Assembly: GCF_014337925.2 (NCBI RefSeq)
Contig: NZ_CP143423.1
Span: 4,308,501-4,372,500 of the forward strand
Length of the DNA: 64,000 nt
Reading direction: 5' to 3'
Source: Roseobacter fucihabitans
Lineage (GTDB): Bacteria > Pseudomonadota > Alphaproteobacteria > Rhodobacterales > Rhodobacteraceae
The notes below the pieces were generated by a model. The model ran no database searches and was not told the origin of the DNA. It was given only the letters and a program-made list of their open reading frames with translations. Shown piece after piece: positions 6,551 to 25,912 of this stretch (its first letter is position 1; each line of letters begins with the position of its first letter). The translations under genes were made by a program, and so were the position numbers.

Positions 6551-6912
6551 GTTGTTCCTCCCTAGCGCCCCTTCCGATCGATCACGGCCGATTCGGAATT
6601 CAGACATTCTCAGGCTAAATGAGGGGCGCACATCATGTCGACACAATTTTTGAGGTACGCCCCTCAAAAATATCTACTCACCTAATATCACTCAGAATTT
6701 TCCTGGCTGGTATCCGCGTTTGCAGTATGAAGGTACGATTGCATTGTAAGATATCCTGACAAATTTCTTGTGATTCTCTGATCTTGCCAAACCGAATACG
6801 ACTACAAGCGACCCTGTGAACGACATCCCTGCATCACCCCTCCCGCTTTCGAAATAGCAAGTGACTGCTTTCGGCATGGTTGTTCAAACCGTTGTTCGAC
6901 CAATGTGTTGAA
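6551..6912. other. Upstream region of the ABC operon, no gene supported
   Basis: These 362 bp separate the binding-protein gene from the IS21 relic. Apart from the dyad at 6647-6670 and the ribosome site next to 6550 I see nothing. A 61-codon reverse reading frame at 6692-6877 has no ribosome site, no family resemblance and unlikely composition. Confidence 0.6.
6647..6670. promoter_or_regulatory. Operator-like dyad upstream of the ABC operon
   Basis: TTTTTGAGG at 6647-6655 and CCTCAAAAA at 6662-6670 form a perfect 9-bp inverted repeat (10 bp with the flanking A/T) around a 6-base spacer, about 97 bp upstream of the binding-protein start. A second overlapping inverted repeat, TGAGGGGCG at 6620-6628 and CGCCCCTCA at 6658-6666, shares one arm. 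This looks like a site for a dimeric regulator; no regulator gene is adjacent within the window. Confidence 0.5.
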
Positions 6913-7124
6913 TGTCATTGAGAACTGAGCCGGTATTTTCACCGAGATTTGACCCGCTGTTAGTTATGTATCGGTAGCTATGCTTTGGTCAATGTGGTGG
7001 CCTCCTTTGTGGTTTTCTTTGCGGCCTCTGAGCTGGTCTTGAAGCGGTAGCTGTCGTTGCCTGTTTCGAGGATGTTGCAGCGGTGGGTAAGCCGGTCGAG
7101 CAACGCTGTTGTCATCTTTGCATC

Positions 7125-7167
7125 CATTGCCCGGCAGTCGTTTTGTGCAGCAAAACGATGAGAGGGG
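7125..7167 (+). repeat. Mini-hairpin element copy 1 (43 bp, in istB)
   Basis: Flanks CATTGCCCGGCAG and TGAGAGGGG surround the stem TCGTTTTG / CAAAACGA with loop TGCAG. In the istB sense strand it lies between the codons of VFG and DAKM, exactly before a GAT codon, and adds 14 codons without shifting the frame. Confidence 0.85.
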
Positions 7168-7301
7168 CCAAAGACCTGGGCCCATTCACTGAAGCTGAGG
7201 TTGGTTGTGATGATGACACTGGTGCGCTCATAGAGCTTGCTCATAAGGTGGAACAGCAGTGCGCCGCCTGACGGGCTGAACGGCAGGTAGCCAAGCTCGT
7301 C

Positions 7302-7339
7302 CATTGCCCGGCAATGCATGTTTACATGCATGAGAGGGG
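7302..7339 (+). repeat. Mini-hairpin element copy 2 (38 bp, in istB)
   Basis: Conserved flanks surround the stem ATGCATGT / ACATGCAT with a two-base loop. In istB it separates the codons of VIL from DELGYLPF, immediately before a GAC codon, with a net gain of 37 bp that shifts the frame. Confidence 0.85.
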
Positions 7340-7374
7340 AGGATGACCAAGTCGATTTTTGTGAGCATCTCAGC

Positions 7375-7418
7375 CATTCACTGACCGGCAGGGTATCGCG
7401 ACGCGATGTCCCGAGAGG
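7375..7418 (+). repeat. Mini-hairpin element copy 3 (about 44 bp, in istB)
   Basis: The copy is more divergent (CACTGACCGGCAGGG ... CCCGAGAGG) with the stem ATCGC / GCGAT and loop GAC. It interrupts istB between GKAGK and AEMLTKID, before a GCT codon; the net shift is +2, compensated by copy 2, which is why one open frame spans both. Confidence 0.8.
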
Positions 7419-7579
7419 TTTCCCGGCCTTTCCGAGGGCCTTTTCCTGTTCCAATGCATTGACCAGTTCGACGGTGGAATAGAAGCGCACTTTGCGTCTG
7501 TGGTGCTCACCGATAGCGGTGGCAACATGGCTTTTGCCGGTTCCAGGTCCGCCAATCAGAACCACGTTTTCCGCATTCT

Positions 7580-7621
7580 CCCCTCTCGGCAGATTGCTTC
7601 GCAATACCCTGCCGGGCAATG
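7580..7621 (-). repeat. Mini-hairpin element copy 4 (42 bp, in istB, opposite orientation)
   Basis: On the plus strand it reads CCCCTCTCGGCAG ... CTGCCGGGCAATG with the stem ATTGC / GCAAT, loop TTC and an 8-bp outer stem. It lies between HRSEFI and the AENVV segment before Walker A, with about 41 bp net gain, so the ATPase frame is broken here. Confidence 0.85.
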
Positions 7622-7843
7622 TATGAACTCACTACGATGGAGTTGACGAACTGTGGCCTCATTGATGTCGCTCGACGCGCAGTCAAAACCCGTGAGGTCC
7701 TTATAGGATGGGAAGCGCGCCACCTTGGTGTGATAGGCAATGGATCGCACTTCGCGTTCCGCCATTTCCGCCTTGAGCAGTTGAGACAACATCGGGGTGG
7801 CCGCCTCAAATGCTGGAACACCTTGTGTAACCAGACCGTCAAC

Positions 7844-7885
7844 CACTGCCCGACAGGGTATTGCGCAGCAATGCACGAAAGGGGG
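7844..7885 (+). repeat. Mini-hairpin element copy 5 (42 bp, in istB)
   Basis: CACTGCCCGACAGGG and CGAAAGGGGG flank the stem ATTGC / GCAAT with loop GCA. In istB sense it sits before GTT GAC (VDGL), at a codon boundary in the rebuilt frame. Confidence 0.85.
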
Positions 7886-7895
7886 CATGCGCCAT

Positions 7896-7941
7896 GTCGC
7901 ACCAAAGGTGCGCAATTATAGATGCTCGCCTTTGGCGAGAC
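7896..7941. repeat. Double-hairpin insert of a different type near the istB start
   Basis: Two small hairpins, CGCACC-AAA-GGTGCG and CTCGCC-TTT-GGCGAG, are joined by an 11-base AT-rich linker. The outer ends GTCGCACCAAAGG and the reverse complement of CCTTTGGCGAGAC form near-identical inverted repeats of about 17 bp, giving a 46-bp unit. It splits the istB N-terminus after MLRSLKL and creates a stop in the linker. It shares no flank sequence with the other inserts. Confidence 0.65.
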
Positions 7942-8078
7942 GCAGCTTGAGACTGCGCAGCATGATGATAATGGAAGCTCCTGCAGGATCATGACGCATT
8001 GCGCTTGCCTCCTGCCTGTCTGAGGTCGTCATAGCGATCCACATTTGCCTTTGGGGCGGTTTCCAATGCAAGAGCATC

Positions 8079-8120
8079 CATTGCCCGACAGGCGATTGCA
8101 AAGCAATCTGCCGAGAGGGG
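8079..8120 (+). repeat. Mini-hairpin element copy 6 (42 bp, in istA)
   Basis: CATTGCCCGACAGG and TGCCGAGAGGGG surround the stem GATTGC / GCAATC with loop AAA. In istA sense it follows the codons of EIDPP and precedes a GAT codon. The outer pair is G-U on the istA mRNA but A-C on the other strand. Confidence 0.85.
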
Positions 8121-8341
8121 GGCGGATCGATCTCTGGGTGATCTGTCTGCTTGGGATCGATCAGTCTATGCAACGGGTTCAGGATATGTGTCTTCGTCGG
8201 CACCCCAGCTTCCAGCGCCAGCTCAACTGCACGCAGGACGGCGCTTTCGTCGTGGTGTAAAACCAAGGACAGGATGTCGACCATTTCCCTGTCACCACCC
8301 TCCTTACGAAGCATGTGGTTTTGCAGTCGGCGGAAGGTATC

Positions 8342-8387
8342 CGGTGCCCGGCAGGCTCTTTTCCACAGGAAAAGATGCCGAAAGGGG
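8342..8387 (+). repeat. Mini-hairpin element copy 7 (about 46 bp, in istA)
   Basis: GGTGCCCGGCAGG and TGCCGAAAGGGG surround the stem CTTTTCC / GGAAAAG with loop ACA. It interrupts istA between TEMP and DTFRRLQ, before a GAT codon, adding 45 bp in frame. Confidence 0.85.
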
Positions 8388-8413
8388 GGCATCTCTGTAA
8401 ACGGCGCGCCATT

Positions 8414-8455
8414 CATTGCCCGGCAGGCGCATGCAAGGCATGCTGCCGAGAGGGG
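8414..8455 (+). repeat. Mini-hairpin element copy 8 (42 bp, in istA)
   Basis: CATTGCCCGGCAGGC and TGCCGAGAGGGG surround the stem GCATGC / GCATGC with loop AAG and a 3-base bulge below it. It lies between KPGAL and NGAPF in istA and puts a stop in frame. Confidence 0.85.
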
Positions 8456-8681
8456 TGAAGGGCCCCCGGTTTGCGTTGGATGACCGCGAGGTAATGGCGC
8501 CAATCATAGATGACTTTGCCTGGCTTGCGATGGGATCGGTCAATGATGCGCTCATGTGTGCAGACGGTTTGGCCTTGAGCCACAATGACCAATCGTTCTG
8601 GGTAAACACGAAGACTGACAGGTCGGTTCGCAAAGCTGGCAGGCACGCTGTAACGGTTGCGCTCGAAAGTGATCAAGCACC

Positions 8682-8721
8682 CCCCTCGTGACATTGCTAC
8701 GCAATACCCTGCCGGGCAATG
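8682..8721 (-). repeat. Mini-hairpin element copy 9 (40 bp, at the istA core deletion)
   Basis: On the plus strand CCCCTCGTGACATTGC-TAC-GCAATACC then CTGCCGGGCAATG. The conserved end is standard, the other end lacks the GGCAG arm. The element sits precisely where the istA catalytic core is missing, between GSYERV and CLITFERN. Confidence 0.8.
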
Positions 8722-8992
8722 GTTGGTGACCCGCTCGTAGGACCCATCATAGCCGAGCTTGACCAAGTCCTCATGCATCAGCTTGACGTTGCGCCACTCT
8801 TTGCGAGACTTCCGCGTTTGAGCCAAAAGCCATGATGATAACCGATCCGCATAAGGATCCAACTTGCTAGGGCGCAACGGCGTCTTAAATTTTGGCTCTA
8901 CCGCGTCGTCGCGAAGATACTTCTTGATGGTGTTGCGAGACAGCCCAGTGCGCCGCGCAATTTCTCGTATCGGCATTTTGTCACGCAATGCG

Positions 8993-9030
8993 CCCCTCTC
9001 GTGCACGTAAACATGCACTGCCGGGCAATG
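8993..9030 (-). repeat. Mini-hairpin element copy 10 (38 bp, upstream part of istA)
   Basis: CCCCTCTCGTGCACGT, loop AA, ACATGCACTGCCGGG and CAATG on the plus strand. The 8-bp stem has one C-A mismatch on this strand, which becomes a G-U pair in the istA-sense RNA. It lies about 17 bp before the MPIREIAR start. Confidence 0.8.
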
Positions 9031-9422
9031 TGGTCCCGTGCGACCCACGCAGGCGAACCTGACCGCATCCTCGCAGGCCAACTCGCCGACATGACCGCCA
9101 CCTGACCGGCCTGTTAAAGGTGAATTGGTGTCTGACATGTAAATACATTGCAAAAAGCGCTTTCGCGCTATTTAGCGACATTATGATACCAACAAGCGGG
9201 TTCGGGGTATGCCAAGCTGCAAACATAGGAGCCGTTCCATTTCCACCCTTTGAACTGCTCTAGAGTGCTCCATCCACCATTTGGAAAGCGCCCGCTACCC
9301 CATGCCCTGATTGGCCGAGCAGCCAGTAGCGAAATTTGGTTTGAAATCTACCGAGAGTGGGTGCGGTGAACCGCTTTTTGACGATAAAAATCGCATCGCA
9401 GCAAAAAACCGCCATGCGACTG

Positions 9423-24900: not shown

Positions 24901-25248
24901 CGAAATCCGCAGATGTCTGGAGGGTAGCACCTCTTCAAACTGAAATCGGTTCAGAAAATTCTGCTCAACGCTTCGAAACTGATCCGCCCGGTTGCGCACT
25001 TCCGCAGATCCGCAGATCCGATGTTCGATTTGACCAGAGGTACTGTCCAGGTGCCGTTGATCACATGGGCCTGCGCATTTGGATCTCTTGAAGCCTCCTC
25101 AACGTCCGCCTGATTTTCACACGGTCCAAGCTGAAAACGTGCCTGCGCTCAGGCGTGTTTCAGATCAAATTTCGCTCACTCTGGTGCGCGCCACCCTCAA
25201 CTAGGACTCTTTTGAAAAACGGTGGTTTATCTGACAAAAGGAATCGAA
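24901..25248. other. Intergenic, no gene supported
   Basis: About 350 bp between arfB with its repeat and the IS30 relic. No credible reading frame or RNA gene is visible; the later part may belong to the old IS30 end. Confidence 0.4.
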
Positions 25249-25912
25249 ATGGGAGCTACTTACGCTCAACTTAGCATCACAGAACGGCGCAAAACTGAAC
25301 GCTGGAGACACGCAAGGGTCCCTGTTAATGAGATGGCGCGTGTGTTGAAGCGCTATCGCGCGACGATCTATCATGACATTAAACGCAACGGATACACCAA
25401 TGAAAGCATGCCCGAATATGCAGGTTACGACGGAGATGCAGCGCATCAGATGATGGCACGTCGCCATGCGCGGGAACGCAAGCTGATTAAATGCCGCGAA
25501 CTGTGCAAAGACGTTATCGGTGGCTGAAGAACGGTTGGACACCTGAACGCTTGGTTCACGACGGCGCGACGTTGCGCGCCTGTCAGGAGGCGATTTACCG
25601 GTACATCCATTCCAAAAAATGGTATGGCGCATAAACTCTGACGGTATCAGCCGCTGCACCGAAAGAACCGCACACCGCGCCATACTCACAAACGTTATAA
25701 GCACAAATTTATTAATAATACCAGCATCTTGCTTACCCTCCTTTTCGGAATATTGTTGCGCAACACCCTGTCGGAAAGTAGATGGTATCGCCCATCGCCG
25801 CCAGTTCGACCACTGGGAAGGCGATTTAATGCTGTTCGAACAGCGGCTTGGCCAGACGAATGTCACTTAGCTGGTAGACGCTTCACCGTGATCCTGAAAA
25901 ACCCCAATAGGT
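25249..25912 (+). pseudogene. IS30-family transposase relic carrying one mini-hairpin element
   Basis: The frame starts MGATYAQLSITERRKTERWR (helix-turn-helix) and breaks at about 25516. It continues in other frames as RWLKNGWTPE, CQEAIYRYIHSKK, RKNRTPRHTHKRYKHKF and, after the hairpin element, IAHRRQFDHWEGDLMLFEQR (DDE region) to FTVILKNPN. At least three frameshifts, small deletions and a truncated end make it inactive. Confidence 0.85.
25736..25780 (-). repeat. Mini-hairpin element copy 11 (45 bp, in IS30 relic)
   Basis: Plus strand CCCTCCTTTTCGG, the core TATTGTTGCGCAACACCC, then TGTCGGAAAGTA. It closely matches copy 5 read on the same strand (CCCCCTTTCG, ATTGCTGCGCAATACCC, TGTCGGGCAGTG). 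In the IS30 frame it lies between SILL and IAHRRQF, directly before GAT GGT, the same position type as in IS21. Confidence 0.75.

Follow-up and report, generated by a model that had tools for sequence, protein, structure and literature searches.

The stretch of DNA analysed here, a window of 64,000 nucleotides from Roseobacter fucihabitans (contig NZ_CP143423.1, positions 4,308,501 to 4,372,500), carries the relic of an IS21-family insertion sequence (IS) that is interrupted by a series of short hairpin elements with conserved ends. The initial annotation had listed ten such copies, all of which were found in the window; refinement of their boundaries by alignment against the intact IS21 copies of Phaeobacter inhibens and Leisingera thetidis (loci L171 and L172) placed the start of copy 3 at 7379 instead of 7375. 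The features are as follows (window coordinates).

6905..9100, minus strand: IS21-family relic (istA and istB fragments), aligned to L171 and L172, ends approximate
7125..7166, plus strand: copy 1, in istB between F-G and D-A-K-M, net insert 42 nt, stem GTCGTTTTG/CAAAACGAT
7302..7338, plus strand: copy 2, short form, in istB, net insert 37 nt, stem ATGCATG/CATGCAT
7379..7419, plus strand: copy 3, in istB, net insert 41 nt
7581..7621, minus strand: copy 4, in istB, net insert 41 nt
7844..7883, plus strand: copy 5, in istB, net insert 40 nt
8079..8119, plus strand: copy 6, in istA, net insert 41 nt
8342..8386, plus strand: copy 7, in istA, net insert 45 nt, stem CTTTTCC/GGAAAAG
8414..8454, plus strand: copy 8, in istA, net insert 41 nt
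8681..8721, minus strand: copy 9, at the istA deletion junction, with adjoining gaps of 186 and 439 bp
8994..9030, minus strand: copy 10, short form, near the istA start, upstream flank not conserved
25740..25780, minus strand: copy 11, diverged, beside an IS30-like relic

Relative to intact IS21, copies 1 to 8 are clean insertions of the net lengths given above, and the same alignment revealed that the uninterrupted relatives do not already contain these sequences as ordinary coding DNA. About 0.6 kb of istA is absent at copy 9. Pfam matches to Mu-transpos_C_2 and HTH_7 were obtained for the open reading frame (ORF) at 8416-9171 (minus strand) of the relic, additional partial copies of which lie elsewhere in the genome, while no Rfam family reached its gathering score within the window. 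Two further features were noted beside the hairpins. A 41-bp insert of another kind, recognised against the same intact copies, adjoins copy 5 at 7899-7939; it contains two small hairpins (GCACC-AAA-GGTGC and CTCGCC-TTT-GGCGAG) and lacks the ends of the hairpin family. The relic beside copy 11 spans 25222-25866, with an HTH_38 ORF at 25222-25524, and is one that we take to be of IS30 type.

The elements consist of CATTGCCCGGCA, a variable hairpin and the tail GAGAGGG, and mostly measure 36-45 nt. The long form pairs as a 3-bp stem and a second one of about 6 bp, with a T bulging out between them on the 3' side, whereas the short form has an unbroken stem of about 7-9 bp; stems start with G, rarely with A, and loops are mostly 3-4 nt. 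Directly 5' of the stem lies a foot, GGCA (alignment columns 9-12), in which A12 is invariant, G9 and C11 are conserved to at least 90% and G10 is sometimes replaced by A. RNAalifold added a further, invariant pairing (CC/GG) around the strands GGCA and GAGA, and an inner CCC/GGG pairing between the element ends is possible. The claim that shared ends enclose a central hairpin whose arms change together was borne out: among 74 distinct 41-nt elements, the nine pairs are formed in 96.2% of cells, compared with 73.6% after shuffling, and sliding the partners by 1-3 columns reduced pairing to 26-59%. Double-changed cells numbered 125 versus 43.2 in shuffled alignments and the covariation score was 0.520 versus 0.142, values that none of 500 shuffles reached, although a cruder count, the number of pairs with changes on both sides (8 of 9), was equalled by 10 of the 500. 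Swapping arms between elements lowered pairing from 0.87-0.99 to 0.68-0.82 across seven length classes, and 188 distinct hairpin sequences were counted among 242 elements. A chance origin of the covarying stems is excluded; it is the structure that is conserved, not the stem sequence. The proposed outer stem GGCAG/CTGCC had to be redrawn, as covariation gives GGC/GCC or GGG/CCC beside the bulged T (column pair 15-32: 37 GC, 34 CG), and in the refined model the internal loop takes in the A that copies 5 and 6 have in GACAG. An artefact of template switching or quasi-palindrome correction would require no mobile element, and template switching can produce perfect arms, yet the recurrence of both conserved ends in 188 distinct flank contexts, at many sites without relation to one another, and exact blunt insertion already contradict such an artefact, to which we assign next to no probability. 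That a dispersed family of hairpins whose stems covary has entered an IS21 relic is supported, and it withstood both refuting conditions of the initial annotation, as more copies were found in the genome and intact IS21 relatives are free of the inserts.

Among the 242 elements, which were selected by Watson-Crick pairing only, G-T mismatches on the CATTGCCC strand outnumber A-C mismatches by 90 to 18, or by 38 to 16 when the closing pair is left aside, and from this excess we conclude that the CATTGCCC strand is probably the folded one, either as RNA or as single-stranded DNA. The G-U compatibility that had been ascribed to the transposase-sense RNA is thereby reversed. Folding on that RNA was not upheld either, since the G-T excess follows the strand of the element, while the elements lie in transposase genes either way round: 200 of 252 distinct contexts had an IS match, 84 in sense and 116 in antisense orientation.

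Comparison of filled with empty sites revealed how the elements sit in their hosts. Two IS3 types of the genome, aligned with intact relatives, gave net inserts of 36, 36, 41 and 41 nt and of 41 and 37 nt without duplication, and in a within-genome pair of 83% identity (L011 filled, L195 empty) exactly 41 bp are inserted with all flanking bases kept. Insertion is blunt and without target duplication. The target logo derived from 199 contexts is weak and reads YCRTC^G, with C at position -1 (.74), T at -2 (.66), A (.55) or G (.31) at -3, C at -4 (.60) and G at +1 (.86). Most contexts have CRTC immediately before the insertion point, and the empty site has it too, which suggests that this tag is target sequence. 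These flanks have no inverted-repeat symmetry, and recognition of the target via a hairpin or palindrome of its own was rejected, as neither a peak of flank complementarity nor a dip in folding energy was found at the insertion point. Where the same transposase lies on both sides of the insert, 82 of 102 inserts shift the frame, the remaining 20 having lengths divisible by 3, and an in-frame coding insert is ruled out. The transposase frame was stop-free on both flanks in 30 of 78 contexts, on one flank in 22 and on neither in 26, counts that are a lower bound only, as other inserts and indels disturb frames; insertion has therefore often struck otherwise open genes.

Homologous IS positions in diverged IS copies were found to be filled at the same bond with different stems, namely eight at the orfB start of IS3 (two of them being the same element, designated IS-A) and four in istB, in addition to further pairs and triples. 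At the IS3 site, the filled copy L002 is 84% identical to the intact L173 and 83% to the filled L032, L032 is 86% identical to L173, and the nearest compared relative of L045 is the intact L174 (82%), with two intact relatives compared per site. Because the nearest compared relatives of these three filled copies are intact, the identities favour independent hits over one inherited insertion. Different stems at one position could also arise if positions were ancient and fixed in IS lineages and stems were exchanged by recombination among hairpins, an idea with which locus L017, resembling a fusion of two IS types, agrees. However, by identity the intact copies fall in between filled ones, as judged from the two intact relatives per site, so that repeated precise losses would be required, and we regard this history as decidedly unlikely. 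In L017 itself (2427-2467; G000:C1 near 3777929), the left flank corresponds to the IS of L014 and the right side to that of L011, the two meeting at the hairpin; hairpins may be points at which IS elements recombine with one another.

IS copies bearing hairpins have multiplied. IS-A measures 1277 bp, contains five hairpins and misses about 150 bp, a segment in which we place the region of the catalytic glutamate. Five complete copies of it, differing in their flanks, are present besides partial ones. Multiplication of interrupted copies would be readily understood if the hairpins were removed or skipped at the level of RNA or translation and the transposases still worked, in the manner of Byps, the mobile bypassing elements of yeast mitochondria, which are likewise short hairpin inserts at many coding positions; the 30 of 78 contexts with both flanks stop-free and the occupation of the same sites in diverged IS copies would fit as well. 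No sign of skipping was seen here, however, and we consider it very improbable: IS-A multiplied despite its missing segment, so that function in cis is not needed, the elements occur in both orientations, host genes, which ought to tolerate a silent insert, seldom contain them, and for several filled copies the closest of the relatives compared is empty.

The hairpins are not a peculiarity of the single relic in which they had been described, as they occur in about ten kinds of IS (judged from Pfam models and reading frames) and a stricter pattern was matched in 108 of 394 sampled genomes of the family, own genome included. The search for further genome copies that had been proposed gave 119 exact matches to the pattern TGCCCGRCAN{12,34}GAGAGG (68 forward, 51 reverse), compared with none for the reversed-pattern control; in at least one of the matches listed (C1:1123927) a hairpin is not apparent. 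A covariance model of the long form gave at least 146 matches at E<=0.001, a lower bound given the form modelled and the 150 of 4727 candidates scored. In the family scan, the reversed pattern was matched once in each of nine genomes, and inspection by eye revealed no hairpin in at least four of the single matches listed (G134, G028, G287, G238). A class-level scan matched 11 of 385 genomes, four of them family members, with control matches in five genomes; outside the family, 7 of 380 genomes matched, two of which (G508 and G586) have real hairpins by eye. Among the first 120 matching stretches of a scan of named genomes, most records listed were titled Rhodobacteraceae or genera known as such, others being Cohaesibacter, Labrenzia, Roseibium, Rhizobium and Rhizobiaceae metagenome-assembled genomes (MAGs), while matches in MAGs titled Clostridia, Omnitrophota and Planctomicrobium had poor stems. 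Plasmid searches matched 74 and 96 records, the 60 listed from each set belonging to genera that we take to be Rhodobacterales, one plasmid of Dinoroseobacter shibae bears several copies, and a phage search with a single 42-nt query found no carriers. The loci fetched (L021-L170) are not independent genomes, since some derive from the same genome and a few probably from the same contig (e.g. L026 and L150), and 10 of 208 elements were dropped for weak stems. On the second contig of the genome, locus L218 (G000:C2:74834-75369) holds five hairpins (1733, 2335, 2506, 2703, 2830) in about 1.2 kb of one IS relic, a density near that of the IS21 relic in the window.

The host DNA of these copies was strongly biased. 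In the own genome, all 42 confident-element clusters examined lie in or beside IS DNA; they were taken from fetched loci after the loose matches L006:245 and L219:4320 had been excluded by hand. Pfam matches were obtained for 23 of 40 hairpin-touching open pieces, all of IS type (two by helix-turn-helix (HTH) models only), and among the 17 unmatched contexts 12 align with verified IS proteins while the other five share a repeat with a reading frame that we read as IS630-like. Of 15 more sites found by the model, eight contain the IS630-like repeat and five align with IS proteins; L244 adjoins a frame that by eye resembles an integrase, and no IS was seen at the weak match L237. In other genomes, 17 of 30 pieces matched Pfam, 15 of them with transposase-type models and two with others (MatE in L130, DUF6638 in L026); in both of the latter the hairpin lies outside the matched domain, and the L130 site is homologous to the IS66 site of L094. 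These 30 pieces were drawn from 45 in random order, with L134, L151 and L034 skipped and L127 taken out of order. A set of 136 hairpin-touching pieces from the other loci, still including chance patterns such as L134 and L151, matched 45 Pfam families, the 25 of them listed comprising 19 transposase or integrase-core families, five HTH models that are common in transposases and Phage_integrase (two members); rve had 28 members, rve_3 20 and DDE_Tnp_1 13. In contrast, 84 control pieces at least 2.5 kb away in the same loci (three of 87, the long ones of L162, L165 and L167, were not sent to Pfam) matched 137 families, aldehyde dehydrogenase and ABC transporters foremost, with one transposase in the 25 of these families listed. 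Protein alignment to a small IS set placed at least 158 of 196 other-genome elements in or within 0.6 kb of a verified IS protein; as to the other 38, some of which are chance patterns, 17 sites in 15 loci read by eye included IS types outside the set, a unit resembling a miniature inverted-repeat transposable element (MITE) and intergenic copies. A denser target motif in IS DNA was rejected as the reason for the bias: with 16.5 motifs per kb in IS flanks, 18.8 in control ORFs and 17.0 in window host DNA, target sites are equally frequent in host and IS DNA, and the motif therefore does not explain the preference. This bias is the strongest and least explained fact of the analysis.

Such a distribution might also result if the hairpin were an ordinary palindrome of the repetitive extragenic palindromic (REP) class, within the CGTC superfamily, that inserts anywhere and is removed by selection outside IS elements. 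CRTC directly 5' of the element does match the CGTC (TGTC, CCTC) tag of alphaproteobacterial REPs given in the available text of Di Nocera et al. 2013 (PMC3733652), and the intergenic copies of other genomes, with at least 38 of 196 elements not aligned to the small IS protein set, point the same way. According to the same text, however, these REPs are mainly intergenic and have 8-9 bp stems starting with AT, 4-5 nt loops and a CCA-like tail, a type not seen in the hairpin family with its 12-nt conserved 5' arm, GGCA foot, GAGAGGG tail and free stem sequence, and the words rhodobacter and roseobacter do not occur in it. Moreover, selection alone should leave intergenic copies, of which there were none among the own-genome clusters examined, all at IS DNA although window host DNA offers about 17 comparable target sites per kb. 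We consider this explanation unlikely.

Two further groups of copies were noted. The first is carried by a MITE-like unit that recurs between genes (L028 1498, L137 1642, L144 6773); it measures about 0.2-0.3 kb, has inverted ends resembling GGGCAGCACA and bears a hairpin with nearly the same long stem in every copy. L137 and L144 belong to one genome, from which L028 (G377) may come as well. The second is a subfamily of 44-45 nt whose flanks are GC-rich and alike (L089 5496 and 6487, L103 2600, L068 5922, L087 3916); it lies apparently outside IS genes, L087 being near an IS630-like gene.

On these grounds, we favour, with a probability of roughly 60%, a non-autonomous mobile hairpin that is moved by a putative single-strand recombinase and spread by IS elements. 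Such a recombinase, probably HUH-like, would act on single-stranded DNA in the style of IS200/IS605 or RAYT, read the hairpin together with GGCA at its foot and join the element 3' to the CRTC target. It is favoured because the lack of duplication, the one-sided short target, the conserved foot tetranucleotide and the strand asymmetry fit IS200/IS605 and REP systems, as far as these are covered by general knowledge and the available text of PMC6006769. Some feature of IS DNA would make it the preferred target, be it access to single-stranded or circular IS intermediates, or arrival on modified incoming DNA, out of which IS elements alone would reach the chromosome, and the hairpin would hitch-hike when intact relatives mobilise an interrupted IS in trans. 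That insertion is aimed at transposable elements as a class, either by a parasite travelling on them or by a host system disabling IS elements in their single-stranded state, is a more tentative proposal whose odds we place somewhat below even.

Several observations weigh against the mobile hairpin. Its movement is deduced from sequence, some copies in other genomes lie in intergenic DNA, and in L215, L007 and L014 a distance of 0.16-0.46 kb separates the hairpin from the closest IS protein aligned. Of the five complete IS-A copies, only one has a plausible 3-bp target duplication, so that mobilisation of IS-A in trans is itself putative. No enzyme was found: the Y1 transposase model PF01797 had no match in 11 of 16 hairpin-bearing genomes, and no hairpins flank the Y1 gene in the 12 loci fetched from the 32-genome sample (L177-L188). 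PF01797 matched 5 of 16 hairpin-bearing and 0 of 16 hairpin-free genomes (15 matches in 5 of 32 genomes), an excess that may only reflect overall IS load. The own IS200 was rejected as a parent, as its ends are unlike the hairpin, and the fetched, hairpin-biased DNA revealed neither a longer element nor an autonomous parent that shares the 5' end, the 281 five-prime motifs including one possible half-element. Among the Y1 loci, only L185-L187 hold a hairpin, which interrupts tnpA itself; they are three identical copies of an IS200 tnpA, each followed by a gene that by eye we take to be of IS110 type.

A search of the open-access literature by sequence string and topic found no paper on the hairpin family, REP papers being the only relevant ones among the matches listed; those listed for the sequence string seem, from their titles, to be unrelated. 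Descriptions of REP-like palindromes usually place them outside genes, and the CGTC class is without a known mover. The present family provides matched empty and filled sites and, with motif density being equal, a strong bias to many kinds of transposons, which makes both its mode of movement and a possible recognition of mobile DNA as a class directly testable in cultured marine bacteria. IS200/IS605-type elements resemble the hairpin family in inserting 3' of a short target without target duplication, but a Y1 transposase of its own or the corresponding IS ends were not encountered in the fetched DNA, whereas a MITE of a classical DDE transposon differs by duplication and because the CATTGCCC and GAGAGGG ends are not simple inverted repeats. 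GTAG REPs with TnpAREP/RAYT, as described in the available portions of PMC6006769, PMC8266576 and PMC2817692, share the single imperfect hairpin, the conserved 5'-foot tetranucleotide and apparent recognition of one strand; here the foot is GGCA, with no GTAG or GTGG foot in the consensus, the copies are not mainly extragenic, and none flank a Y1 gene in the 12 loci fetched. Rickettsia palindromic elements are short palindromes within alphaproteobacterial genes (PMC3733652, in the text available) and add amino acids to host proteins, while most of the present inserts shift the frame and their hosts are transposases. The hairpin family lacks features that define REP/RAYT and Rickettsia-type elements. 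The nearest described class is that of the CGTC-tagged REPs, which the available text of PMC3733652 describes as common in alphaproteobacteria without known transposase, and which are similarly short, palindromic and dispersed; the sequence directly 5' of the present hairpins is CRTC. However, this CRTC seems to belong to the target, being seen in empty sites, long conserved arms flank a hairpin with a free stem, and the copies lie mostly in IS genes and not between genes; with stem, tail and location differing, the family is not filed in that class.

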